A DNA stretch of 46,268 nucleotides, taken from a virus. The notes beneath the pieces were generated by a model. It had not been told where the DNA came from and did not search any database. It was given only the letters and a program-made list of their open reading frames with translations. Below are positions 23,113 to 46,204 of the stretch, in pieces. The translations under genes were made by a program, and so were the position numbers. Where the stretch lies: IMG/VR virus record IMGVR_UViG_3300043464_001208, positions 1 to 46,268 of that record. The stretch is one strand, 5' to 3'. Position 1 is the first letter of the stretch; every line of letters starts with the position of its first letter.

Positions 23113-23154
23113 TAGGGCATGACCAGCAACGACACCAACGCGAAGGGGACAAAG

Positions 23155-23478
23155 ATGAAAAGCGAAACCAAGACTTGCGAATGCTACAAGTGCGGCGGGT
23201 CGGGCTACATTGAGGCGTTTTCTGGAATCGCCAGCGGGATTTGCTTCACCTGCGACGGAACCGGCAAGGTCGCGTTTCGCGTCAAGAAGCAAAACAAGTT
23301 CAGCCCGATCAACGCGATGCACTGCCGGACGCTTGATGAAGCACAGAGCTTCCGGCTCGCGGAGTTCGCGAATCGTTTTCCCACGATTGCCCTGACAGCC
23401 GATGACGAATACCGAATCAAGAATGGCTGCGGAAACCTGAAGCAGATTGTCGCCAACTATGAAATGAGCGTTTCATGA
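23155..23478 (+). CDS. Small protein with DnaJ-type zinc motif
   Basis: 107 residues from ATG 23155, which has AAGGGG a few bases upstream; an earlier ATG (23119) falls at the expected transcription start, so it is less likely. CYKCGGSG (about 8-15) and CFTCDGTG (about 29-36) are two CxxCxGxG repeats that bind one zinc, as in DnaJ. The remainder is charged and helical. First gene of the early transcript from P1; possibly a chaperone-like or host-takeover protein, function unknown. Confidence 0.7.
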   Translation: MKSETKTCECYKCGGSGYIEAFSGIASGICFTCDGTGKVAFRVKKQNKFSPINAMHCRTLDEAQSFRLAEFANRFPTIALTADDEYRIKNGCGNLKQIVANYEMSVS

Positions 23479-28965: not shown

Positions 28966-30105
28966 ATGATGCTTGATTTCATTGCCGATTGGTGCAAGCA
29001 GTTGGAGCGACTGCCACTTGCCCAGCAAGTCGAGGAACTCAATGCCGCTCGTCGGATGATGCACGACGCAGGCCCGTTCAAGCGGGAGCCGGTGGACTGC
29101 ATTCAGTGGATTCACACTGAGAACATCCAGGCGAACGACTACAACCCGAACAGCGTCGCGCCGCCAGAGATGGAACTGCTCAAGTTGTCCATCCTCGAAG
29201 ACGGATACACGCAGCCGATCGTCTCGTGGAAGCGTGAATACGTCCACGAAGTCGTAGACGGATTCCACCGCAACCGCGTAGGCCGCGAGTGCATGGAGGT
29301 TCGGCAGCGGATTCGCGGCTACCTTCCCCTCACGATCATCAACACCGAGCGACAGGATCGCGGCGATCGCATCGCTTCGACCATCCGGCACAACCGGGCT
29401 CGCGGCAAGCACGCGGTGTCGGCGATGAGCGACATCGTGATCGAGCTGAAGCGTCGCAACTGGGCAGACGAAAAGATCGCCCGCGAGCTCGGCATGGATC
29501 AAGACGAGATCCTGCGGCTCTGCCAAATCAGCGGACTAGCGGAACTATTCACCGATCAAGAGTTCTCGAAATCGTGGGACGTTGAAGGCTCGGTCACTGA
29601 GGCCGATTTCGCCGAACTGACCGACGATGTGCAGAGCTACGGGGAAGACGAGACCGCTGGCTTTCGCACTGTCAACACGTCCGACGAAGGTCGCATCTTC
29701 CATACCTATGACAAGTGGGAGTGCCACAAGGCAGGGTTCTACGCCACCACCAAGGAAGGCATGAACAAAGCGGAATGCGAAGCCGCAATGCGGGATCTCC
29801 TGGCCGACATCCCTGCGTTCAAGAAAGCGTTGCGAGGCGTCATCACGAAGTGGAAGAACTCGTGTGAGCACTACCTGACCAACGCTGCCATGAACCGCAT
29901 TGCATGGCTGGGGCAAGCGGCGGCGTGCTACGCCATCGGCATCCCTGCGACCTATCGCGGCGGCTTCTACCTGCTGACCAGCGACCAGCAAGAAGCAGCG
30001 AATGCTGCGGCCCTGGCGGCTCTGAACAAGTGGCTAAAAGCAAATGGTCGCAAGCCGGTGGACATGAGCACCGCCGCTCCCGACCGCGAGATGGAGATTT
30101 ACTAA
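28966..30105 (+). CDS. ParB-like (IbrB-type) protein
   Basis: 379 residues. Residues about 40-170 carry a ParB/Srx-like domain: NIQANDYNPNSVAPPEMELL, ILEDGYTQPIVSW, VDGFHRNRVG and TIRHNRARGKH. The C-terminal half is a helical specific region. The next gene is a PAPS-reductase-like protein that shares one base with it, the same pair as IbrB/IbrA. These are proposed to act on DNA or nucleotides; the chemistry is not proven. AAGGAGC precedes ATG 28966. Confidence 0.8.
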   Translation: MMLDFIADWCKQLERLPLAQQVEELNAARRMMHDAGPFKREPVDCIQWIHTENIQANDYNPNSVAPPEMELLKLSILEDGYTQPIVSWKREYVHEVVDGFHRNRVGRECMEVRQRIRGYLPLTIINTERQDRGDRIASTIRHNRARGKHAVSAMSDIVIELKRRNWADEKIARELGMDQDEILRLCQISGLAELFTDQEFSKSWDVEGSVTEADFAELTDDVQSYGEDETAGFRTVNTSDEGRIFHTYDKWECHKAGFYATTKEGMNKAECEAAMRDLLADIPAFKKALRGVITKWKNSCEHYLTNAAMNRIAWLGQAAACYAIGIPATYRGGFYLLTSDQQEAANAAALAALNKWLKANGRKPVDMSTAAPDREMEIY

Positions 30106-31382
30106 TGGGCGTCAAGAGATTCAGCGACATCGACGTGCTGACGGCCGCAAGGCGACGCATCGCCGAGACCTTCGACAACTTCCCGCGAATCTACGTCGCG
30201 TTCAGCGGCGGCAAGGATTCGAGCGTGATGATGCACCTCGTGATGGAGGAGGCCATTAAGCGGGGTCGCAAGGTCGCGGTGATGTTCATCGACTTCGAGG
30301 CTCAGTATGCCGACACGATCGCCCACATAGATGAGATGTTCCACCTCTACCGCGACAACATCGACCCGCATTGGATCTGCATGCCGATGCTGCTTCGTAA
30401 CGCGGTGACGAACTACGAGCCCAGGTGGACGTGCTGGGATGAGGCGAAGCGGGAGGCGTGGGTTCGCGACAAGCCGATGGCTTGCAAGACAGAACGCGAC
30501 TACCCGTTCGCCGTGGCCGGCATGGAGTTCGAGGAGTTTATCGTTCTATTCGGCGAGTGGTACGGGCAAGGCGAGCTCACTGCCGGGTTTATCGGCATTC
30601 GGGCGCAAGAAAGCCTGCACCGCTACTGTGCGATTGCGACCTGGGAGAAGCGAGGCAAGACGTTCGGCGGGCGGCGGTGGACAACGAACATCGTGGATCG
30701 CGTGTTCAACGTCTACCCGATCTACGATTGGCTGACCGAGGATATTTGGCGGTATCACGCCAAGCATCCCGACAAGCCGCACAACAACATTTACGACCGC
30801 ATGAATCAAGCGGGCGTGAAGCTCTCGCAGCAACGGCTCTGCCAGCCGTTCGGCGATGACCAGCGACGCGGGCTCTGGCTGTATCACATTCTTGAGCCTC
30901 AGACGTGGTTCAAGCTCGTGGCCCGCGTCAACGGCGCGAACAGCGGATCGCTCTACATCGAAGAGAAAGGCAACATCAACGGCTACCACAAGATCACGAA
31001 GCCCGAGGGACATACCTGGAAGTCGTTCTGCAACCTCTTGTTGCAGACCATGCCGAAGAAGACTCGCGACCACTACGCGGCCCGGTTCAAGAAGTTCATC
31101 TGGGGCTGGCACCAGCGGGGCTACACGGGCATCCCCGAAGAAGCACCGCCCGAGTTGGAGTCGAAGTGCTGGGCACCGTCTTGGCGGCGAATGTGCAAGG
31201 TGCTCCTGCGGAACGACTACTGGTGCAAGGGGCTGGGGCAGACGCAGCCAAAGTCGGAAGCCTACGGAACGTACATCCGGCTCCGTGATGCTCGCCGTGC
31301 GGAAGCCAAGCGGCAAGAGCAGGAGAGGAAACGGCAGGAGCGGGCGCAACGGCGACTCTTCGACGCGGAGGCCGTGGCATGA
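30105..31382 (+). CDS. PAPS reductase-like PP-loop protein (IbrA-type)
   Basis: 425 residues. The PP-loop SGGKDSSVMM lies near residues 34-43, followed by VMFIDFEAQYADTIAHIDEM and IGIRAQESLHR, typical of IbrA/DUF3440 relatives of phosphoadenosine-phosphosulfate reductase. The C-terminus is charged and coiled (RRAEAKRQEQERKRQERAQR). PP-loop enzymes adenylate substrates, and relatives act in sulfur transfer (DndC) or regulation. Start ATG 30105 overlaps the IbrB-type stop. Confidence 0.85.
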   Translation: MGVKRFSDIDVLTAARRRIAETFDNFPRIYVAFSGGKDSSVMMHLVMEEAIKRGRKVAVMFIDFEAQYADTIAHIDEMFHLYRDNIDPHWICMPMLLRNAVTNYEPRWTCWDEAKREAWVRDKPMACKTERDYPFAVAGMEFEEFIVLFGEWYGQGELTAGFIGIRAQESLHRYCAIATWEKRGKTFGGRRWTTNIVDRVFNVYPIYDWLTEDIWRYHAKHPDKPHNNIYDRMNQAGVKLSQQRLCQPFGDDQRRGLWLYHILEPQTWFKLVARVNGANSGSLYIEEKGNINGYHKITKPEGHTWKSFCNLLLQTMPKKTRDHYAARFKKFIWGWHQRGYTGIPEEAPPELESKCWAPSWRRMCKVLLRNDYWCKGLGQTQPKSEAYGTYIRLRDARRAEAKRQEQERKRQERAQRRLFDAEAVA

Positions 31383-37042: not shown

Positions 37043-37828
37043 ATGCGGGGCTTGGCTTTCATCGCCGGGCTGGTCGCGGCGGTGGCTTCTGCGGGCACCG
37101 TCGAGGATACGATTCCCGACGCCCGCTACCGCCAGTACGGCGAGACGTTCGCGGCGTATACGTGCCGGCTCGGCGGGATGAACACGGACGGCAATCCGCA
37201 GGTCGGCACTTGCACGCTGATCGCCCCGCACTGGGCATTGACCGCCGCCCATGTCGTGCGGGATATGACCGCGTGCGAGGTCGAGACGGCGGCCGGGCGG
37301 CACCGGATCGACAGGGTGTTCGTCTATCACGAGTACGCGGGCGTGTTCGCCCGGCACGACATCGCCCTCGTGCATGTAGTGCGACCGTTCGCGGTGACGG
37401 TCTATCCGCCGCTGACTGACGGCAGCGAGCGGGCGGGTGAGGTCTGCACCGCAGCCGGGTACGGCGTCACGGGTCGGCTCTCGACCGGGTTCGGTGGCGG
37501 CGACAACCAGATCCGAGCGGGAACGATGCGGCTGACCGAGGCTGTCGCGAGCGTGTGGGTTTGCAAGATCGAGCGGGGCGGGTCGCCTCTGCCGTTCTGC
37601 ATTGCACCGGGGGACAGCGGCGGCCCGCTCTGGGCACGGGCGGCGGATGGTCGCACGGTGCTGGTCGGCGTGAACTCCTACACGGCGAAGATCGGCAAGC
37701 CGCCGGTACGGAGTCAGGCGGGGGAGGAGAGCGGGCATACGCGGGTGGCGTTGTACCTCGATTGGATTCGGGAGATCGCGGGGGAACTTGACAAGGGCTG
37801 CACTCTCGCAGCATGTCAACCGCGATAG
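37043..37828 (+). CDS. Secreted trypsin-like serine protease (S1)
   Basis: 261 residues. Signal peptide about 1-17 (MRGLAFIAGLVAAVASAG), then the S1 fold with H70 (LTAAHVV), D106 (RHDIALV) and S192 (PGDSGGPL). Several Cys (41, 57, 78, 135, 174, 186) may form disulphides outside the cytoplasm. A secreted chymotrypsin-like protease is rare in phages; it might process host surface proteins, aid lysis or alter the lysogen. Its 3' end overlaps rusA by 16 bases and carries a TTGACA box. Confidence 0.88.
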   Translation: MRGLAFIAGLVAAVASAGTVEDTIPDARYRQYGETFAAYTCRLGGMNTDGNPQVGTCTLIAPHWALTAAHVVRDMTACEVETAAGRHRIDRVFVYHEYAGVFARHDIALVHVVRPFAVTVYPPLTDGSERAGEVCTAAGYGVTGRLSTGFGGGDNQIRAGTMRLTEAVASVWVCKIERGGSPLPFCIAPGDSGGPLWARAADGRTVLVGVNSYTAKIGKPPVRSQAGEESGHTRVALYLDWIREIAGELDKGCTLAACQPR

Positions 37829-38288: not shown

Positions 38289-38609
38289 ATGCGTTCCATC
38301 GTGTTTGTGTTCCTCGCGGCCCTCGCCGTGCCCGCCGTTGCCCAGGAGCAGAGCGTGCTCGTCACGTCCGCTCCCGTCGCGGCGAGTTACGTGTCGGCTC
38401 AAGACCACGCTCAGGCACTCGCGTGCTCGGGCGGGTTCTCGCACTGTGCCCGCCGTGGCGGCTACTACGAGGGCATCGGGTTTTCGACCGTCTCGCCCTC
38501 GGCAGCGGTTCGCCGCTGCTGCTTCTGGGGCGTGCGGAAGCCCCGCGAGGTGGGCACCGCCTACTGCCCGCAGCGAAAGGGCTGGGTCGCGGTCGTGAGG
38601 TACTACTGA
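38289..38609 (+). CDS. Secreted Cys-containing hypothetical protein
   Basis: 106 residues with a clear signal peptide (MRSIVFVFLAALAVPAVAQE, cleavage after A-V-A). The mature part has five Cys (46, 53, a pair in RRCCFW and one in YCPQ). Preceded by CAGGAG. Exported, function unknown; neighbour of the secreted protease. Confidence 0.65.
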   Translation: MRSIVFVFLAALAVPAVAQEQSVLVTSAPVAASYVSAQDHAQALACSGGFSHCARRGGYYEGIGFSTVSPSAAVRRCCFWGVRKPREVGTAYCPQRKGWVAVVRYY

Positions 38610-38612
38610 CCC

Positions 38613-39224
38613 ATGCCCGAGATCACGCTCAACGACGAGTTCGGCAAGGCCATTGTCGCCACGGTGCACGCGTGTCGTGTGCAGAGCGTGATTGAGATTG
38701 GCTCGTGGGACGGGCTCGGCTCAACGACTGTGCTGATGCACGCGTTGCAGTCGCAGCCCGACCCACGGCTGACCTGCGTTGAACCGAACCGAGTGCGACA
38801 CGCCTACCTCCAGGGCGTCGTGGCGGAAAAGCCGTGGGTGACAACCGTCTGCCGCCGCAGCGTCAGCCGCGAGACGATGATTCACCGCGAGTTCGCGGAG
38901 GTCTGGCGGTCGCCGTACAACCGGCTCCGCTATGACGAGGCGACGGTTCGCGAGTGGTGGAACGAACAGCGCACCGGGCCGGGCTACCTTGAGACGCTGA
39001 CCGATGAGCGATGGGATGCGGCCCTCATCGACGGGTGCGAGTTCTGCGGCGTCGATGATTTCTTCATGCTCAAGAATCGCGTGCGGGTACTGATGCTCGA
39101 CGATGTGTTCCACGCGTTCAAGTGTGCCGAGGCTCACGAGCAACTCCGCCGAGACCCGAATTGGTCGTGCATCTGGTCGAGCTCTTTCATTCGCAACGGC
39201 GCGAGCATTTGGGTGCGACCATGA
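38613..39224 (+). CDS. SAM-methyltransferase-like protein
   Basis: 203 residues. VIEIGSWDGLGST is a class I SAM-binding glycine motif, followed by TCVEPN (the acidic ribose-binding end of strand 2) and DAALIDGCE. It could methylate a sugar or small molecule made by the neighbours; substrate not visible. First of a tightly packed accessory block. Confidence 0.68.
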   Translation: MPEITLNDEFGKAIVATVHACRVQSVIEIGSWDGLGSTTVLMHALQSQPDPRLTCVEPNRVRHAYLQGVVAEKPWVTTVCRRSVSRETMIHREFAEVWRSPYNRLRYDEATVREWWNEQRTGPGYLETLTDERWDAALIDGCEFCGVDDFFMLKNRVRVLMLDDVFHAFKCAEAHEQLRRDPNWSCIWSSSFIRNGASIWVRP

Positions 39225-39856
39225 AGACCGTCGTGCTCGTCAGCGGGCAGATGCGGACGGCTGACCAGTGTGCCGCCGGCATCCGCGAGCTCTACCCCGA
39301 TGTACCGTTTGTGGTACACGCGGTCGCCGACGAGGACGCCGAGAAAGCGTTCCTCTTTCGCCCGGCAGTGACGGTGATCGAGCCGCAGCGGGAGATGCCT
39401 GAGCGGCGGGAGTATTCGATTCAGATCGGGCGGGGATGCCACGGCGTGCAGCGGGTGCTGAAACAACTCTGGGGGCTGCGTCGCGTCTGGCAAGTGTTCG
39501 AGGCGAGCGGCATCGAAGCCGATTGCGTGGTGCGGTGCCGGGCCGACCTTGCGTTCAGCGTGCCGCCTGAGCCGTTCGAGGGCACGGGGTGGCGGGTGCC
39601 GACGTTCTGCAACTGGTTCGGGTTCAACGACCGATTCGCGTTCGGCGACTTGCCAGCCATGCGAAGGTACTTCACACGGCTCGACCGCCTAGACGAGTAC
39701 ATCGACGCGGGCGGAATGTTTCATCCCGAGACGTTCCTCGGGTGGGCGATGCGGGGCGTGCCGGCTGAGAGCACGCGGGCGGTCTTCGCGACGGTGCGGG
39801 CCGACGGCACGCGAGATGAGCCGCAGTGGTTCGCGAACGCAGGAGACATCCCGTGA
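39221..39856 (+). CDS. Glycosyltransferase-like protein
   Basis: 211 residues. VVLVSGQMRTADQCAAGIRE starts a Rossmann-like fold; RCRADLAFSVP and the GFNDRFAFGDLPAMRRYFTR segment resemble a small family of polysaccharide-type transferases with a Dx-D-like site. Predicted cytoplasmic. Overlaps the upstream and downstream genes by four bases. Confidence 0.65.
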   Translation: MKTVVLVSGQMRTADQCAAGIRELYPDVPFVVHAVADEDAEKAFLFRPAVTVIEPQREMPERREYSIQIGRGCHGVQRVLKQLWGLRRVWQVFEASGIEADCVVRCRADLAFSVPPEPFEGTGWRVPTFCNWFGFNDRFAFGDLPAMRRYFTRLDRLDEYIDAGGMFHPETFLGWAMRGVPAESTRAVFATVRADGTRDEPQWFANAGDIP

Positions 39857-41175
39857 AGGTGCTGTTCTCAAATCCGCCGTGGTGGGATGTCTCCGAGCAG
39901 TACCTACGCTGCGGCGTGCGGGCCGGCTCGCGGTGGCCGTTCACGATGCCCGCGAACGCGATGCCGGGCGAGTTCAAGTTCGGGGGCTATCTCCCCTACC
40001 CGTTCTTCCTCGGGTACGCGGCGACCTACGCGGCGGCCAACACGACCGCCGAGATCCGGTTCCGCGATTCGATCGCCCTGCGGGAGAGCTACCAGACCTA
40101 CATCGACTACCTCGCCGCCGAGCGACCCGACATCGTGGTGATCGAGACGGCCACCCCGAGTTGGCAGCACGATGCCCAGGTCGTGCAGATGATTCACAAC
40201 GTGCTGCCGGCGGCGAAGATCGTGATCGCCGGGCCGATCACGACCACGAAGAGCGACGAGATCCTCGCGACGCTGCCGGTTCACGCGTGCCTGCGGGGCG
40301 AGTACGAAAAGAACGCGGTCAAGGTGATCGAGGGAGCGAGCGGCGTGATCGACTTCGACTTGCTCACGCTCGCTGAGATGAACGCGGCACCGCCGCCGTG
40401 GATGGATGCGGAGATCGCACACCGCTACTTCGACTACAACCCGATCGGGCAGCAGTACCCACACGCTCACGTATGGTCGAGCCGGGGATGCCCGTACAAG
40501 TGCTGCTTCTGCGTGTGGCCCGCCGCGATGACGGGCAACGATCCCGACGGCACGAACGTGCGGAAGGTTCGCCACTACTCGCCCGAGTACATGGAGCCGT
40601 ACCTCACCGGGCTCGTGCGTGACTACGGGTTCCGCTCGATCTACTTCGATGATGACACGTTCAACCTCGGCAACTCGCACGTCGTGAAGATGTGCGAGGT
40701 CATGCGGCGAGTCGGCGTGCCGTGGTCGGCGATGTGCCGGGCCGACACGAGCAAGATGGAAACGTGGTCGGTGATGAAGGAGTCGGGCTGCTTCGGCGTG
40801 AAGCTCGGGTTCGAGAGCGGGAACCAGTACGTCGTGGACAAGATCGTGAACAAGCACCTCGATCTGGAGTACGCCCGCGAGGTGGTGCATGAACTCAAGC
40901 GAATCGGCATGACGGTTCACGGCACGTTCACAGTCGGGCTCCCCGGCGAGACGCGAGAGCAGATGCAGGACACGGTGCGATTCATCGAATCGCTGCCGCT
41001 CGACTCGCATCAACTCTCAGGCACCGCCGAGATCGAAGGCACGCCGCTGCACACGCTGCGGACGGCGGGGCACCTCGACGCCTACGAAGGGGCGAGCATG
41101 GATGCGAACTCTCAGATGCACACCGACGGGAACAAGCGTTTCGCCATGCTCGCCGAGGAGCTCCGCAACTCGTGA
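39853..41175 (+). CDS. B12-binding radical SAM enzyme
   Basis: 440 residues, GTG start with AGGAG upstream. The N-terminal part (about 1-160) looks like a cobalamin-binding Rossmann domain (DIVVIETATPSW, KIVIAGPITTTKS). The radical SAM cluster motif is GCPYKCCFC (C213, C217, C220). Downstream IYFDDDTFNLGN, VKLGFESGNQYVVDKIVNKH, HGTFTVGLPGET are typical of class B radical SAM. Such enzymes perform methylations or rearrangements; substrate unknown. Neighbours suggest a sugar or surface molecule. Confidence 0.88.
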   Translation: MKVLFSNPPWWDVSEQYLRCGVRAGSRWPFTMPANAMPGEFKFGGYLPYPFFLGYAATYAAANTTAEIRFRDSIALRESYQTYIDYLAAERPDIVVIETATPSWQHDAQVVQMIHNVLPAAKIVIAGPITTTKSDEILATLPVHACLRGEYEKNAVKVIEGASGVIDFDLLTLAEMNAAPPPWMDAEIAHRYFDYNPIGQQYPHAHVWSSRGCPYKCCFCVWPAAMTGNDPDGTNVRKVRHYSPEYMEPYLTGLVRDYGFRSIYFDDDTFNLGNSHVVKMCEVMRRVGVPWSAMCRADTSKMETWSVMKESGCFGVKLGFESGNQYVVDKIVNKHLDLEYAREVVHELKRIGMTVHGTFTVGLPGETREQMQDTVRFIESLPLDSHQLSGTAEIEGTPLHTLRTAGHLDAYEGASMDANSQMHTDGNKRFAMLAEELRNS

Positions 41176-41891
41176 ACATCACCGTCTCGGCCTACAACCG
41201 CCCGGCGTATCTGGAGCAGACGCTCGCCGCGTTGCGGTCGTGCTACGGCATCGGCGATTGCCGCGTGATGGTGCTGGTCGATCCCTCGGAAGCGTCAGTG
41301 CATTCCGCCGCCCTCGCGGCCCGGTACGGCTTCCAATCGGGCACCTACCCCGAGCGGGTCGGGTGCAACCGGGCGATCCGCAACGCTCTCGCGTATGGGT
41401 TCAACGAGATGGGCAGCGAGTTTCACGTTCACTTCGAGGATGACACCGTGCCGACGCGGGACTGCCTGCGATGGTTCGCGTGGGCGAGGGATCACTACCG
41501 CGACGATCCCGCCGTGATGAACGTCTCGGGCTACCAGCGGGTGAGCAACGGGTGCCTCGACGAGTGCGGGCTGCGACGTTGGTTCACGCCGTGGGGCTGG
41601 GGCGTGTGGCGTGATCGCTGGCTCGGGCTGCACCTGGGCTGGGTGCAAGGCGACGAGGCGACATCGTGGGATGTGATCGTGAATCACGGGCTGCGAGCCG
41701 GGCGGTACGAAGCGTTCCCCACCGTGAGCCGCATCCAGAACATCGGGGCAGAGCAGGGCACGCACGTGCCCAGTGCCGAGTGGCACGCCGAGCATCACCG
41801 CGTGGCGGTGACGAGCGACCACATTGAGAACGGCGAGATGCCGGCGGCGTGGCGGGAAGTGCGGAGGGCTGATCGTGCAGATCACGATTGA
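41172..41891 (+). CDS. Family 2-like glycosyltransferase
   Basis: 239 residues. NITVSAYNRPAYLEQTLAAL is the GT2/GnT-I-type start, and HVHFEDDTVPTRDC gives the metal-binding EDD. FTPWGWGVWRDRW resembles the acceptor region. GTG 41172 overlaps the radical SAM stop. Cytoplasmic, sugar donor and acceptor unknown. Confidence 0.8.
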   Translation: MNITVSAYNRPAYLEQTLAALRSCYGIGDCRVMVLVDPSEASVHSAALAARYGFQSGTYPERVGCNRAIRNALAYGFNEMGSEFHVHFEDDTVPTRDCLRWFAWARDHYRDDPAVMNVSGYQRVSNGCLDECGLRRWFTPWGWGVWRDRWLGLHLGWVQGDEATSWDVIVNHGLRAGRYEAFPTVSRIQNIGAEQGTHVPSAEWHAEHHRVAVTSDHIENGEMPAAWREVRRADRADHD

Positions 41892-42765
41892 GGACATCGA
41901 GCGGCACGCCCCCGATGTGCTTCTTCCGCCCGATCCCGAGTTCGCGGAGGACTACGCCGCGAAGGTCGAGCTCGGCAGGACGTTCGCTGCCGGGGCCCGC
42001 GTTGCCCTGGTCGCGATCTGCCGCAACGCGATGCCTTGGCTCCCGCGAACGCTCGATCTCGTGGAGCGGACGGGGGCGGCGTTCAAGTCGTGGTCGGCGT
42101 TCGTGTTCGAGAACGACTCCGAGGATGGCACGAAGGAAGTGCTCGCGGCGTGGGCTGACGGCGACCGGCGCAAAGTTTCTCTGAACATCAACCACCGCCC
42201 GCACCTTTCGCACACGATCGCCCAGGAGCGGACGGTCGCCCTCGCCGAGTACCGCGAGCAATGTCAGCACTGGGTGCGGAGCCGCGAGCCGGTGGATTAT
42301 GCGATCGTCTTCGACACTGACCCTTGGGGCGGCTTCAGCATCGACGGCGTGATGAACTCGATCGCGTGGATGTCGCTCGATCACTCGTGGTACGGGCTGG
42401 CTTCGTACTCGTGGTGCGAGATGAACACCGCGATCGGGCCAGTGGCGGCGCACTATGACGCGTTCGCCGCGAGGCTCAATCACTGGGGGCGACGCGATCA
42501 GCAATGGTTTCACCATTGGCATCCCGCCGTGGGCTCGCCCCCGGTCGAGTTCAACTCGGCATTCGGGCAGTTGTGTGTCTACCGTGCCGGCCCGTACCTC
42601 GCGGGCAAGTACGGCGGTGCCGACTGTGAGCACGTTGTGCTGCACCGTTCGATTGCAGAGCAGGGGAGACTGTGGAATGACGAGCACTGCCGGCTGGGCT
42701 TGAACCCATCGAGCCGGGCGGTCTCCTTCTGGGTGCCGAATGGCGGGCAAGACAGCAACGATTGA
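41875..42765 (+). CDS. Glycosyltransferase-like protein (mannosyltransferase-type)
   Basis: 296 residues. VALVAICRNAMPWLPRTLDL, ENDSEDGTKEVL and YAIVFDTDPWGG carry the GT-A motifs (DTD as the DxD). The long acceptor half is aromatic-rich. GTG 41875 lies near the end of the previous gene. Together with 39221 and 41172 it could build a short glycan. Confidence 0.72.
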   Translation: MQITIEDIERHAPDVLLPPDPEFAEDYAAKVELGRTFAAGARVALVAICRNAMPWLPRTLDLVERTGAAFKSWSAFVFENDSEDGTKEVLAAWADGDRRKVSLNINHRPHLSHTIAQERTVALAEYREQCQHWVRSREPVDYAIVFDTDPWGGFSIDGVMNSIAWMSLDHSWYGLASYSWCEMNTAIGPVAAHYDAFAARLNHWGRRDQQWFHHWHPAVGSPPVEFNSAFGQLCVYRAGPYLAGKYGGADCEHVVLHRSIAEQGRLWNDEHCRLGLNPSSRAVSFWVPNGGQDSND

Positions 42766-43147
42766 CGCGACCACTCTCCGCGTTCTTTGGGACTCCTATC
42801 TTCCGATGGGAGCCATCTGCCAGCATTTCACGATTACAGTTCACCAACTCGTGCGGCTCCGCGTCGCGTGGGAACTGCCGCCCCGCAACGATCGCAAGCG
42901 ACGGTACAAGCCGAGCCGAGACGAGCGGCTACTCGACCCCGACGCTGACGAACTCGCCGCCAGCGAGTCGAGCCTCGACCTCGCCCCGATGGTCGCCGAG
43001 CGGGTGACGGTGGTACATGCCACATGGACGCCCGCCGATTGGGCAGAGCGGCAGGCGGTGAAGCCCGAGCCGTTCCGGCTGGCACGGTTCGCCACGCCCG
43101 ACGAAGCCCGCGATCTCGTGGACGAACCCGCCGAGGGGGAGTGGTGA
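42740..43147 (+). CDS. HTH protein, paralogue of 36668
   Basis: 135 residues. TTLRVLWDSYLPMGAICQHF, then TVHQLVRLRVAWELP is a resolvase-like HTH. C-terminal half with DELAASESSLDLAPMVAERV as in 36668, then a specific tail (EWTPADWAERQAVKPEPFRL-like). Overlaps the upstream gene by 26 bases. Probably regulatory. Confidence 0.6.
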   Translation: MAGKTATIDATTLRVLWDSYLPMGAICQHFTITVHQLVRLRVAWELPPRNDRKRRYKPSRDERLLDPDADELAASESSLDLAPMVAERVTVVHATWTPADWAERQAVKPEPFRLARFATPDEARDLVDEPAEGEW

Positions 43148-43398
43148 AGAGCCTGCCCGACTATGTGGAGCGGCGGATCGTGGTCGAGTTCGGCCTGCGG
43201 TACGCCTACGCCTACATCACAGACGGGGCTGGGAAGCTTATTGATGAGGAGTCGTTCAAACAGCCTTACAAGCTGGAGCGAAAGGAATGCCACGAGGAAG
43301 CGAAGGATGTGTACTCGCTGATCTATGACTCACTGAACGAGCTCATCAACTTCCCAACTGCAAGTTCGGACGATGCGGGTGGTACACCGGAGGGATAG
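43144..43398 (+). CDS. Small hypothetical protein
   Basis: 84 residues, GTG start overlapping the previous stop. RRIVVEFGLRYAYAYITDGA then an acidic helical tail. Unrecognised, at the start of the probable lysis region. Confidence 0.55.
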   Translation: MKSLPDYVERRIVVEFGLRYAYAYITDGAGKLIDEESFKQPYKLERKECHEEAKDVYSLIYDSLNELINFPTASSDDAGGTPEG

Positions 43399-43406
43399 CC
43401 CCCGGA

Positions 43407-43715
43407 GTGCCCGCCATGCCCGCGTATGAGATGACCCCGGCCGAAGCGGCCGAGTACGGCAACACGCTCAACATCTGGCAGGCGATCCGCCTGCTGCAGA
43501 CGTGGAGCCCACTGCTCGCCTACGGGCAGAAGTTCGTGAACACGATCGACCCGTACCAGAAGGGTCTGATCGTGGGCGAGGCTGCCGAGTGGCTCGCGAG
43601 CAAGACCGACTCCCAGGTTGACGATCAGCTCGTTCGGCATCTCGCCGAGGTCGCGAAGACCAAGGAAGGCGAGGCTCTCGTTCGGTTCTGTCTCGGGCTT
43701 GCAGGCGTGAAGTAA
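43407..43715 (+). CDS. Small helical hypothetical protein
   Basis: 102 residues. GTG 43407 with GGAG upstream; ATG 43416 is an alternative. MTPAEAAEYGNTLNIWQAIR and QKGLIVGEAAEWLASKTDSQ are helical. Shares one base with the next gene. Function unknown. Confidence 0.6.
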   Translation: MPAMPAYEMTPAEAAEYGNTLNIWQAIRLLQTWSPLLAYGQKFVNTIDPYQKGLIVGEAAEWLASKTDSQVDDQLVRHLAEVAKTKEGEALVRFCLGLAGVK

Positions 43716-44323
43716 TGGATCGTGAAACACTCCTACGCTCCCTCGCAGCCGTCGCAGCCGTGGCGATCCTGGCCGCGCCCTATTGGCGTGTGGTGGCTGA
43801 CGCTCTCGAAGCGGGAGTCGCTGCCGCCAAGGCCCACGCCAACGTCATCGGGAGGCTCGCCGCCGCCGGGCTGATCGTGGCGGCAGCGTGGGGCAAGATC
43901 CCCATGCCGTCGTTCGAGGTGCCCGCCGTGCCGGCGGTCGAGGTCGAGGAACCGAGTGCCGAGATGAAGACGCTGGTCGCCCCCGTCGCTGCCGCCCTGC
44001 GATCCCTGCCGGCTGGCGATCGGATGCTCTGGGCATCGACGTGGAGCAAGGCGGCAATCGTGGTGGCTGGCGATGCGACCGCCCGCGAGGCGGCGTTCAC
44101 CGATACCCGGAGCCTCCAGGCGTTCACCGGGTTGGCTCTCGACATCGCTTGGCGGCGGATCGGGCGGCACGAGCCGGGCAGCAACGAACCGCTACGGAAG
44201 GCTCTGGAAGCCGCCTACGGGGCAGCGGTGGGTACCGACGAGGTTCCGGTCACTCGTGACATCCGCGACCGCTACGCCGCATTTGCGAAGGCTCTGGCGT
44301 GGGCTGGCATCAACGGGGGGTGA
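43715..44323 (+). CDS. Two-TM membrane protein, possible holin
   Basis: 202 residues. Hydrophobic helices at about 7-22 and 43-60, then a soluble helical C-terminal domain. The size is above usual holins, so a signal-arrest or membrane-anchored accessory role is also possible. Directly precedes the papain-like gene. Holin assignment is from place and topology only. Confidence 0.55.
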   Translation: MDRETLLRSLAAVAAVAILAAPYWRVVADALEAGVAAAKAHANVIGRLAAAGLIVAAAWGKIPMPSFEVPAVPAVEVEEPSAEMKTLVAPVAAALRSLPAGDRMLWASTWSKAAIVVAGDATAREAAFTDTRSLQAFTGLALDIAWRRIGRHEPGSNEPLRKALEAAYGAAVGTDEVPVTRDIRDRYAAFAKALAWAGINGG

Positions 44324-44326
44324 GCG

Positions 44327-45265
44327 ATGGCGGGTGAATCCTTCCTGCCGTTGTTCGGCTACCAGCCCGATCCCGAGGGCTCGGCGGCGTTCGTCGCCTC
44401 GCTCCCGCACCCGACGCTCGCGGAAGCCGGGCCGGATCTCCAAGCGGCGAAGACCGACGTGCATCTAGAGCGGGCTCTCCTCCAGTGCTCGCCCTCGTGG
44501 AAGCGGGGTAGCCAGCCGATCGGCTCGTGCGTGGGCTGGGGCTTCGCGATGTCGGTGGACATCCTCGCGGCGTGCGACATCGTGCTGCGGAAGGAACCCG
44601 AGACCTGGGGCGGTCGCACGATCGAGGCGTCGGTCTACGGGGTGAGCCGGGTCGAGGCTCGCGGGCGAACGTCGGCACCGGGCGGGGACGGGAGCACGGG
44701 CTTCCATGCCGCGAAGGCGGTGAGGGATTGGGGCGTGCTGCACTACGGCCAGCAGTACGGCAGCGTGCGGTTCGACCGACAGTTCACCGGCACGCAAGAG
44801 AAGCAGTGGGGTCGCGATGGGATGCCCGATGAACTGGAGCCCTACGCCAAGCAAAGGCGATGCTCCGAGGTCACGCTCGTCAAGTCGTTTGACGATTGCG
44901 CGAAAGCGATCAGCAACGGCTACCCGGTCGCCCTCTGCTCAATGCGTGGGTTCTCGATGCGGTTCACCGATCGAGGCTCGCTCGGCGGTGGCTGGCTCAC
45001 GCCCGCCGGCACCTGGGCACATTGCATGATGGGTTGCTCGGTTCGCTGGGATCGCCCGGCGATCCTCGTGCCGAACTCGTGGGGCAACTGTTACTCCGGG
45101 CCGGTTGACTCGCGGCTCCCCGAGGCTTTCCAGAAGTCGGCGGGCTGGGTCGATGCCGAGGTGATCGACTCGATGTGCAAGGGCGGTGACTCCTACGCCC
45201 TTGCGGGCTTCAGCGGCTTCAAGCCGACCACGCTGCCAGAGAACTGGCTGGAAGGAATCCTGTGA
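44327..45265 (+). CDS. Papain-like cysteine peptidase (C1 fold), possible lysin
   Basis: 312 residues. The papain order Cys-His-Asn is visible: C68 in IGSCVGWGFA, H232 in TWAHCMMGC, N250 in VPNSWGN, the last identical to the family's NSWG. No signal peptide. It lies between a membrane protein and a lipoprotein in the lysis position. A phage lysin cutting peptide bonds, or a protease against the host envelope, is an inference; no peptidoglycan-specific domain is seen. Confidence 0.78.
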   Translation: MAGESFLPLFGYQPDPEGSAAFVASLPHPTLAEAGPDLQAAKTDVHLERALLQCSPSWKRGSQPIGSCVGWGFAMSVDILAACDIVLRKEPETWGGRTIEASVYGVSRVEARGRTSAPGGDGSTGFHAAKAVRDWGVLHYGQQYGSVRFDRQFTGTQEKQWGRDGMPDELEPYAKQRRCSEVTLVKSFDDCAKAISNGYPVALCSMRGFSMRFTDRGSLGGGWLTPAGTWAHCMMGCSVRWDRPAILVPNSWGNCYSGPVDSRLPEAFQKSAGWVDAEVIDSMCKGGDSYALAGFSGFKPTTLPENWLEGIL

Positions 45266-45570
45266 TGTTCCGCTGGCTCATCGTGTTCGCGATCGTCTCG
45301 GGCGGCTGCGTCGCTTCGCTGCCGAGTGACCCCAGCATCTCGGCGGATCTTGCGGTCGAGACTGCCCGCATGGTGATCGCCAGCCGGTCTGCACCGCCGG
45401 CTCCGACGCCCGACGCGGGACGCTGTGAAAACTGCAATGGCACCGGGAAAATCGGTGATGGAAGAATCGTCATGCCTTGCCCGGAATGCGGCGGCGACGG
45501 AGTGAAGGGGGCGGAAAAGTCGGTGCTGCATCCCGCCGCGTTCGTGCCGTGCAAGGAGTGCAACTCGTGA
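45265..45570 (+). CDS. Lipoprotein with DnaJ-like zinc motif
   Basis: 101 residues. Signal peptide with lipobox IVSGGC (lipid-bearing Cys near 15). The mature part contains CENCNGTG and CPECGGDG plus a CKEC pair: a DnaJ-type zinc repeat. A periplasmic outer-membrane lipoprotein beside a peptidase resembles an o-spanin position, but the zinc motif is unusual. Starts at ATG 45265 (TGATG with the previous stop). Confidence 0.68.
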   Translation: MFRWLIVFAIVSGGCVASLPSDPSISADLAVETARMVIASRSAPPAPTPDAGRCENCNGTGKIGDGRIVMPCPECGGDGVKGAEKSVLHPAAFVPCKECNS

Positions 45571-45929
45571 CGGTCGCGGATCTGAAGCTCTGGGTCTGGC
45601 GAAACGTCGGCATCCGGCGGCACCTCGTGGGCCGTCAGGTGATCGACGATTTCACCGAGCTCGCGGTACAGCACTGGGAGAGCGAGGCGTACACGCACGC
45701 GGTGAGTGCCGATCAGCAAGCGATCGTGACCGAGGAAGTGCTGAAGAGCGTCAAGCGGGGCTACCAGATCGTGAGTGACAAGGACGATCCGCAAGAGTAC
45801 GGATTCTTTTGGGCACTCGTGCTCCAGGCGGTCGCCTCGATCGTGGTGCAACTCATCCTGCGATGGTGGCTCGATGCACGGATCAACCGGGTACGCATTC
45901 TGATCTGGCAGCAGGAGTTGACGCGATGA
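45567..45929 (+). CDS. Membrane protein of the lysis region
   Basis: 120 residues, GTG start overlapping the lipoprotein stop. One TM helix at about 77-97 (FFWALVLQAVASIVVQLILR) near the C-terminus, with a charged tail. Unknown, possibly inner-membrane spanin-like or holin partner. Confidence 0.58.
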   Translation: MTVADLKLWVWRNVGIRRHLVGRQVIDDFTELAVQHWESEAYTHAVSADQQAIVTEEVLKSVKRGYQIVSDKDDPQEYGFFWALVLQAVASIVVQLILRWWLDARINRVRILIWQQELTR

Positions 45930-46204
45930 CCATCGAAACCAAAGACACGCTGATTGGCATCATGGAGCGATGGGGCTTCCCGACGCTCGTGGCTCTCGGG
46001 CTGGCGTTCTTCATCCGTCAGGATCTGCTGCTGCCCTTGCTCGAAGAGCACCGGCTGACGCTGAAGGAAGTGCGCGAGACGCAGCGTGAGATTGCGGACG
46101 CGATCGGCGACCAGACGCGGTTGCTCTTGTCGATACAGTCGGGGAAGCCCGTGCATGGCTTGCGGACTGTGGACGCGAGCGAGCCGGAACCCGGCACGAA
46201 CTAA
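45926..46204 (+). CDS. TM plus coiled-coil protein, holin candidate (BhlA/UviB-like)
   Basis: 92 residues. N-terminal membrane helix about 16-35 (WGFPTLVALGLAFFIR), then a charged coiled coil (HRLTLKEVRETQREIADAIG). The pattern is that of small phage holin-like proteins. Overlaps the previous gene by four bases. It is the last complete gene. Confidence 0.6.
   Translation: MTIETKDTLIGIMERWGFPTLVALGLAFFIRQDLLLPLLEEHRLTLKEVRETQREIADAIGDQTRLLLSIQSGKPVHGLRTVDASEPEPGTN

Follow-up and report, generated by a model that had tools for sequence, protein, structure and literature searches.

What enzyme would burst the host of a tailed phage in which no usual endolysin can be recognized? This question is raised by one locus of a 46,268-base stretch of DNA (the window, analyzed at its full length). 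The window comprises an entire IMG/VR virus record and encodes a portal, an S78 prohead protease, a major capsid protein, a tape measure, an integrase, and replication genes. The first-pass annotation placed a lysis region toward its end, with membrane proteins surrounding a papain-like peptidase and a zinc-motif lipoprotein. We confirmed these open reading frames at their coordinates, with small transmembrane (TM) or membrane products encoded on both sides of the peptidase. Because each start codon overlaps the preceding stop codon or is only a few bases away from it, the six genes at 43407-46204 look like one translationally coupled operon. The features of this block are as follows.

43138..43398, + strand: small conserved ORF (g43138) that usually opens the block, preceding gene 43407 at most of the clade's loci
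43407..43715, + strand: conserved soluble protein (g43407) of 99-102 aa, whose stop codon overlaps the next start
43715..44323, + strand: membrane protein of 202 aa, candidate holin or anchored regulator, adjoining the peptidase across the clade
44327..45265, + strand: predicted C1 xylellain-type cysteine peptidase of 312 aa, candidate endolysin, based on profile and fold
44513..44530, + strand: codons from Gln63 (44513-44515) to the catalytic Cys68 (44528-44530), both invariant in 34 homologues
45020..45022, + strand: codon of the catalytic His232, invariant in 34 homologues
45074..45085, + strand: codons of Asn250 and the NSWG motif, which aligns with the NSWG of xylellain
45265..45570, + strand: Cys-rich lipoprotein of 101 aa with a Pro-rich linker and CxxCxGxG motifs, based on profile matches
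45567..45929, + strand: protein of 120 aa with a C-terminal TM segment, conserved in the block
45926..46204, + strand: protein of 92 aa with a short N-terminal TM segment and then a coiled coil, with a homologue (c28) in a second clade

The protein at 43715-44323 has two N-terminal hydrophobic segments, a Pro-rich linker, and a helical C-terminal domain. The peptidase has no signal peptide. By topology alone, the protein at 45926-46204 may be holin- or spanin-like; a BhlA-type holin was suspected here, and the match was not found. None of the small membrane proteins matched a holin or spanin family.

Single-sequence searches with the peptidase gave no match in Pfam, PHROGs, NCBIfam, PDB, or phage records, and the protein was recognized only via profiles and folds. 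Homologues came from 20 viral-contig relatives, 155 candidate stretches found by profile, and Planctomycetota genomes. A profile of 34 sequences, searched against PDB with hmmsearch, matched xylellain at 4.3e-6, followed by Lpg2622, cathepsin B, and papain. The xylellain match spans the catalytic Cys region to the end of the protein, with the catalytic residues aligned. An AlphaFold2 model built from 35 sequences (pLDDT 90.3, pTM 0.91) superseded an earlier model from 13 sequences (pLDDT 64), and Foldseek matched the newer model to xylellain (5.3e-12) as well as to procathepsins and papain. Against viral structures, the Foldseek matches were C1 peptidases from both tailed phages and giant viruses. 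The fold is also shared by two phage entries that bear the names "Peptidoglycan binding-like" and "N acetylmuramidase" and are leads by name only.

The protein has Gln, Cys, His, and Asn in the order expected of C1 peptidases, together with the NSWG motif, a papain fold, and profile-level homology. Across the 34 homologues, with identity down to ~23%, Q63, C68, and H232 show no variation, and conservation of N250 is at least 90%; the Cys68-His232-Asn250 triad was correctly numbered in the first-pass annotation. The dN/dS of 0.06-0.16 indicates strong purifying selection. A CHAP identity, which a structure comparison was to distinguish from C1, was ruled out, as the Foldseek matches shown were all C1 (among them xylellain, cathepsin B, and papain) and PF05257 gave no match. 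Nor did the peptidase belong to NlpC-P60 (PF00877). Based on profiles and the structural model, we assign ORF 44327-45265 to the papain family (C1) as a xylellain-type peptidase. Its catalytic domain comes with no recognized wall-binding domain.

At ~48 viral loci of the window clade, the gene order is largely kept: gene 43407, the two-TM protein, the peptidase, the Cys-rich lipoprotein, the C-terminal-TM protein, and the N-terminal-TM protein. Where the contig extends far enough, this cassette lies upstream of terS/terL. Gene 43407 was found in 240 stretches across viral contigs, and the peptidase was always present where the contig was long enough. In locus sets that have some contigs in common (peptidase-, 43407-, and terminase-selected), the peptidase was present in 78 of the 79 loci chosen via gene 43407, the remaining one being cut by the contig end, and in 11 of the 12 chosen via the terminase with at least 7 kb upstream. 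The sole exception in the terminase set (L310) lacks the peptidase, and its gene calls look broken. Based on these counts, the peptidase is a core gene of the phage group, and we saw no replacement by another enzyme. One supposed replacement (L165) was rejected, as an intact copy of the peptidase is present there. The homologues in related phages that the first-pass annotation had called for are thus found, in a cassette that is nearly fixed across the window clade. The arrangement, a hydrolase beside small TM proteins in the late region, is the one expected of a lysis cassette.

We scanned 30 peptidase-bearing records, many of them fragments, for Amidase_2, Phage_lysozyme, CHAP, NLPC_P60, M23, SLT, and M15_4, and found none; control genomes gave a positive signal in these scans. 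Most window genes were also scanned against PHROG and Pfam, and no lysis family was found. The earlier statement that no usual endolysin is seen elsewhere held in all of these scans, and rare or novel lysin families elsewhere in these phages are possible. Because the peptidase sits in a fixed block of membrane genes and none of the seven common wall-cutting families was found, it is the leading candidate for a host-bursting enzyme.

Other parts of the window yielded separate observations. A secreted trypsin-family protease at 37043-37828 (Pfam, 6e-14), with His70, Asp106, and Ser192 intact, is encoded just upstream of RusA and occurs in five of eight larger genomes of the clade. It was overlooked in the first-pass annotation and is a possible second envelope protease. 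A small exported Cys-containing protein at 38289-38609 (family c18) has no family match and is common to two otherwise different peptidase-bearing phage clades. A moron-like run at 38613-42765 includes a methyltransferase-like protein and two or three glycosyltransferase-like proteins, and 39853-41175 encodes a radical SAM protein by appearance. At 28966-31382, a ParB-like protein is followed by a PAPS-reductase-like protein.

The lipoprotein at 45265-45570 had been described as bearing a DnaJ-type zinc repeat. Its CxxCxGxG stretch resembles the DnaJ cysteine-rich domain (PF00684, E 1.5e-4) and Anti-TRAP (E 1.2e-5), both below the curated cut-offs. For PF00684, with its four CxxCxGxG repeats, the score was 22.4 bits against a cut-off of 32.7, so the resemblance stands and DnaJ membership does not. 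Relatives have a clear lipobox (e.g., VVLIGC); that of the window (VSGGC) is weaker. Several relatives encode an exported thioredoxin-domain protein one or two genes after the peptidase (L133 at 1.9e-10; L125, L127, and L128 as well), and L128, L129, and L055 have a CxxC/CxC stretch with GDG ahead of the thioredoxin domain. The window lipoprotein matches the N-terminal part of these thioredoxin proteins (hhalign 89.5%, E 2e-6) and that part alone; the thioredoxin domain with its active-site CxxC is absent. This suggests that the lipoprotein is the same partner minus the thioredoxin domain, an apparent kinship overlooked in the earlier reading. Outside the cassette, the window encodes a second protein with a CxxCxGxG stretch (23119-23478), which is also DnaJ-like below the cut-off.

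The peptidase also occurs beyond the window clade. In a second phage clade, the genes ahead of it often encode a small TM protein and an exported protein (c19), and the TM protein (c28) is homologous to the window protein at 45926-46204 (hhalign 97%, E 4e-11). In a third clade, the peptidase is anchored to the membrane at its N-terminus, and its neighbors are other small TM proteins. Across at least three clades that otherwise differ, small TM proteins therefore flank the peptidase, as they also do in Planctomycetota prophages. Within Planctomycetota genomes, the peptidase was found among phage genes near the terminase (L138 and L139), beside the terminase (L148), and among head and tail genes (L147). 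Most clades encode a membrane-bound or exported protein upstream of the peptidase. Its c22, c19, and L128/L135 versions are linked mutually by profiles (47-96%), and the window version is linked marginally (E 0.008-0.01 versus ~0.1-0.3 for unrelated pairs). Endolysins are soluble and SAR endolysins are N-terminally anchored; soluble and signal-anchored forms of the peptidase both occur among relatives.

Three further arrangements were seen around peptidases of this kind. In L134, L135, and L136, a single upstream ORF has holin-like hydrophobic segments followed by lipoprotein-like sequence, and also a possible PKD/Ig-like region and a helical partner domain. A protein family with a GLxLWLDAxD start, perhaps LamG/concanavalin-like (c13; L002 7903-8631 and L063 7548-8282), comes after the cassette in two different clades. 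Gemmataceae and a metagenome-assembled genome (MAG) labelled Bacteroidales have a chromosomal trio around a membrane-anchored C1 peptidase (L083, L082, and L121), made up of an exported partner, the anchored peptidase, and a small exported Cys protein, with no phage genes recognized near it in the pieces read.

Planctomycetota are the likely host of the window phage, which belongs to a large group of freshwater phages that probably infect Planctomycetes. The peptidase is carried by four of five genome-contig matches and by 12 of 392 sampled Planctomycetota genomes. Portal relatives occur in Planctomycetota at 37-38% identity, no closer than those in phages of other hosts. A search for a host of the window clade via gene 43407 found none in the 392 Planctomycetota genomes, and the clade thus has no prophage in this sample. 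When Planctomycetota prophages were chosen by portal, the peptidase was not detected in the pieces read; phages of this phylum therefore do not all carry the cassette.

The composition of the planctomycete wall was in dispute for decades. Planctomycetota possess peptidoglycan (PMC4432640); a protein wall that withstands boiling SDS has also long been described for Planctomycetes (PMC3422733). As both are described, either could be the substrate. The protein-rich wall suggested in the first-pass annotation is thus a loose fit, in that such a wall has been described but the hosts do have peptidoglycan.

With moderate confidence, we read 43407-46204 as the lysis cassette of a temperate tailed phage, with the C1 peptidase as its endolysin. 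The region upstream of terS/terL is a common site for lysis genes. Lysis is the best supported reading because the cassette lies upstream of the terminase and is kept together, because soluble and anchored forms of the peptidase exist, and because no other peptidoglycan hydrolase was found in the 30 records and the S78 protease is separate. Against it stand the Gemmataceae chromosomes with a similar trio, the failure of the small membrane proteins to match any holin or spanin family, and the lack of a recognized wall-binding domain on the enzyme. The earlier call of a lysis region is partly supported, in that the C1 assignment is right and lysis is the likeliest function.

We infer a lysis function, and with it a membrane passage, a substrate, a role for the lipoprotein, and a host, along the following lines. 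The cassette proteins would be made late, as one coupled operon, and the signal-less peptidase would accumulate in the cytoplasm. Its passage through the inner membrane would follow once a small membrane protein (the product of 43715, 45567, or 45926) had made that membrane permeable. In the periplasm, the peptidase would cleave peptide bonds that keep the wall together, whether in peptidoglycan cross-links or in envelope protein. The lipoprotein (45265) could help in one of three ways: it might maintain the catalytic thiol in the reduced state, it might open disulfides, of which its thioredoxin relatives could be capable, or it might act like a spanin. A more specific version, which we consider unlikely, is redox-coupled lysis, in which the papain-type endopeptidase and a thiol-active lipoprotein of the thioredoxin or zinc-cysteine type would jointly open the planctomycete envelope with no murein-specific hydrolase. 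The main barrier would then be a disulfide-linked protein wall or a peptide cross-link reachable only with reduced thiols.

The Gemmataceae trio and the thioredoxin neighbors of the peptidase would also suit an exported, non-lytic system that modifies the envelope, with lysis carried out by an unrecognized protein. The peptidase, its upstream partner, and the thioredoxin/zinc lipoprotein would be active in the periplasm of an infected or lysogenic cell, where they would trim or protect surface proteins (for superinfection exclusion, receptor removal, or biofilm escape), and the second secreted protease in the genome fits such a role. We regard this as rather unlikely, since the peptidase is a core gene sited before the terminase and no other lysin was detected. 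It is quite improbable that the peptidase is instead packaged in the virion as an entry enzyme that opens the wall at DNA injection. Some clades do encode it beside tail or head genes, but in the window clade it lies outside the structural module, coupled to membrane proteins and a lipoprotein, and the N-terminal membrane anchors of other clades are ill suited to a virion protein. The chance that it is a head maturation protease is close to negligible, and the idea was dropped: L064/L068-type phages place the peptidase between portal/protease and capsid genes, but they and the window each encode a separate, canonical S78/HK97-type prohead protease, and membrane-anchored forms of the peptidase exist.

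If the lysis role is true, C1 peptidases would join the endolysin folds. We found no description in the literature of a C1-centered cassette with a thioredoxin-related lipoprotein, and no report in the open-access literature of the means by which Planctomycetota phages lyse their hosts. A conserved cassette with a papain-type peptidase as its only recognizable hydrolase, beside a thioredoxin-related lipoprotein, represents a testable lysis mechanism. The peptidase might offer a new class of enzyme for breaking open planctomycete cells, and the cassette could serve as a probe of what holds the planctomycete envelope together.

Lambda-type holin-endolysin-spanin cassettes serve phages of Gram-negative bacteria. 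The window cassette resembles these in its place beside the terminase, its small TM proteins, its one hydrolase, its Pro-rich lipoprotein, and its overlapping genes. It differs in that the hydrolase is of the C1 type, the lipoprotein has CxxCxGxG motifs (and a thioredoxin domain in relatives), and no holin or spanin family is recognized. Xylellain-type genes have already been noted in tailed phages (PMC10380794). Xylellain and the short bacterial C1A peptidases (PDB 3OIS) have in common with the window peptidase the fold, the Gln-Cys-His-Asn residues, the NSWG motif, the size, and a folded N-terminal extension. However, identity is ~15%, and the window peptidase has a conserved N-terminal G-Y/W-x-x-D-P motif and is encoded in a fixed neighborhood of membrane proteins and a lipoprotein. 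Papain-superfamily endolysin domains are known from CHAP, NlpC/P60, and the N4/N5 domains of mycobacteriophage Lysin A (PMC3314691). Like the window peptidase, these are thiol endopeptidases proposed as phage lysins, but they are compact domains of C40/C51/C39-like type that usually come with wall-binding modules, whereas the window peptidase is a full-length C1 domain alone. PeiW and PeiP, the pseudomurein endoisopeptidases of archaeal phages (PMC4592898), are likewise phage cysteine peptidases directed against a host with an unusual wall. They belong to another family and act on another host domain, with a known substrate; they lyse their host, and they are assayed with a reducing agent.
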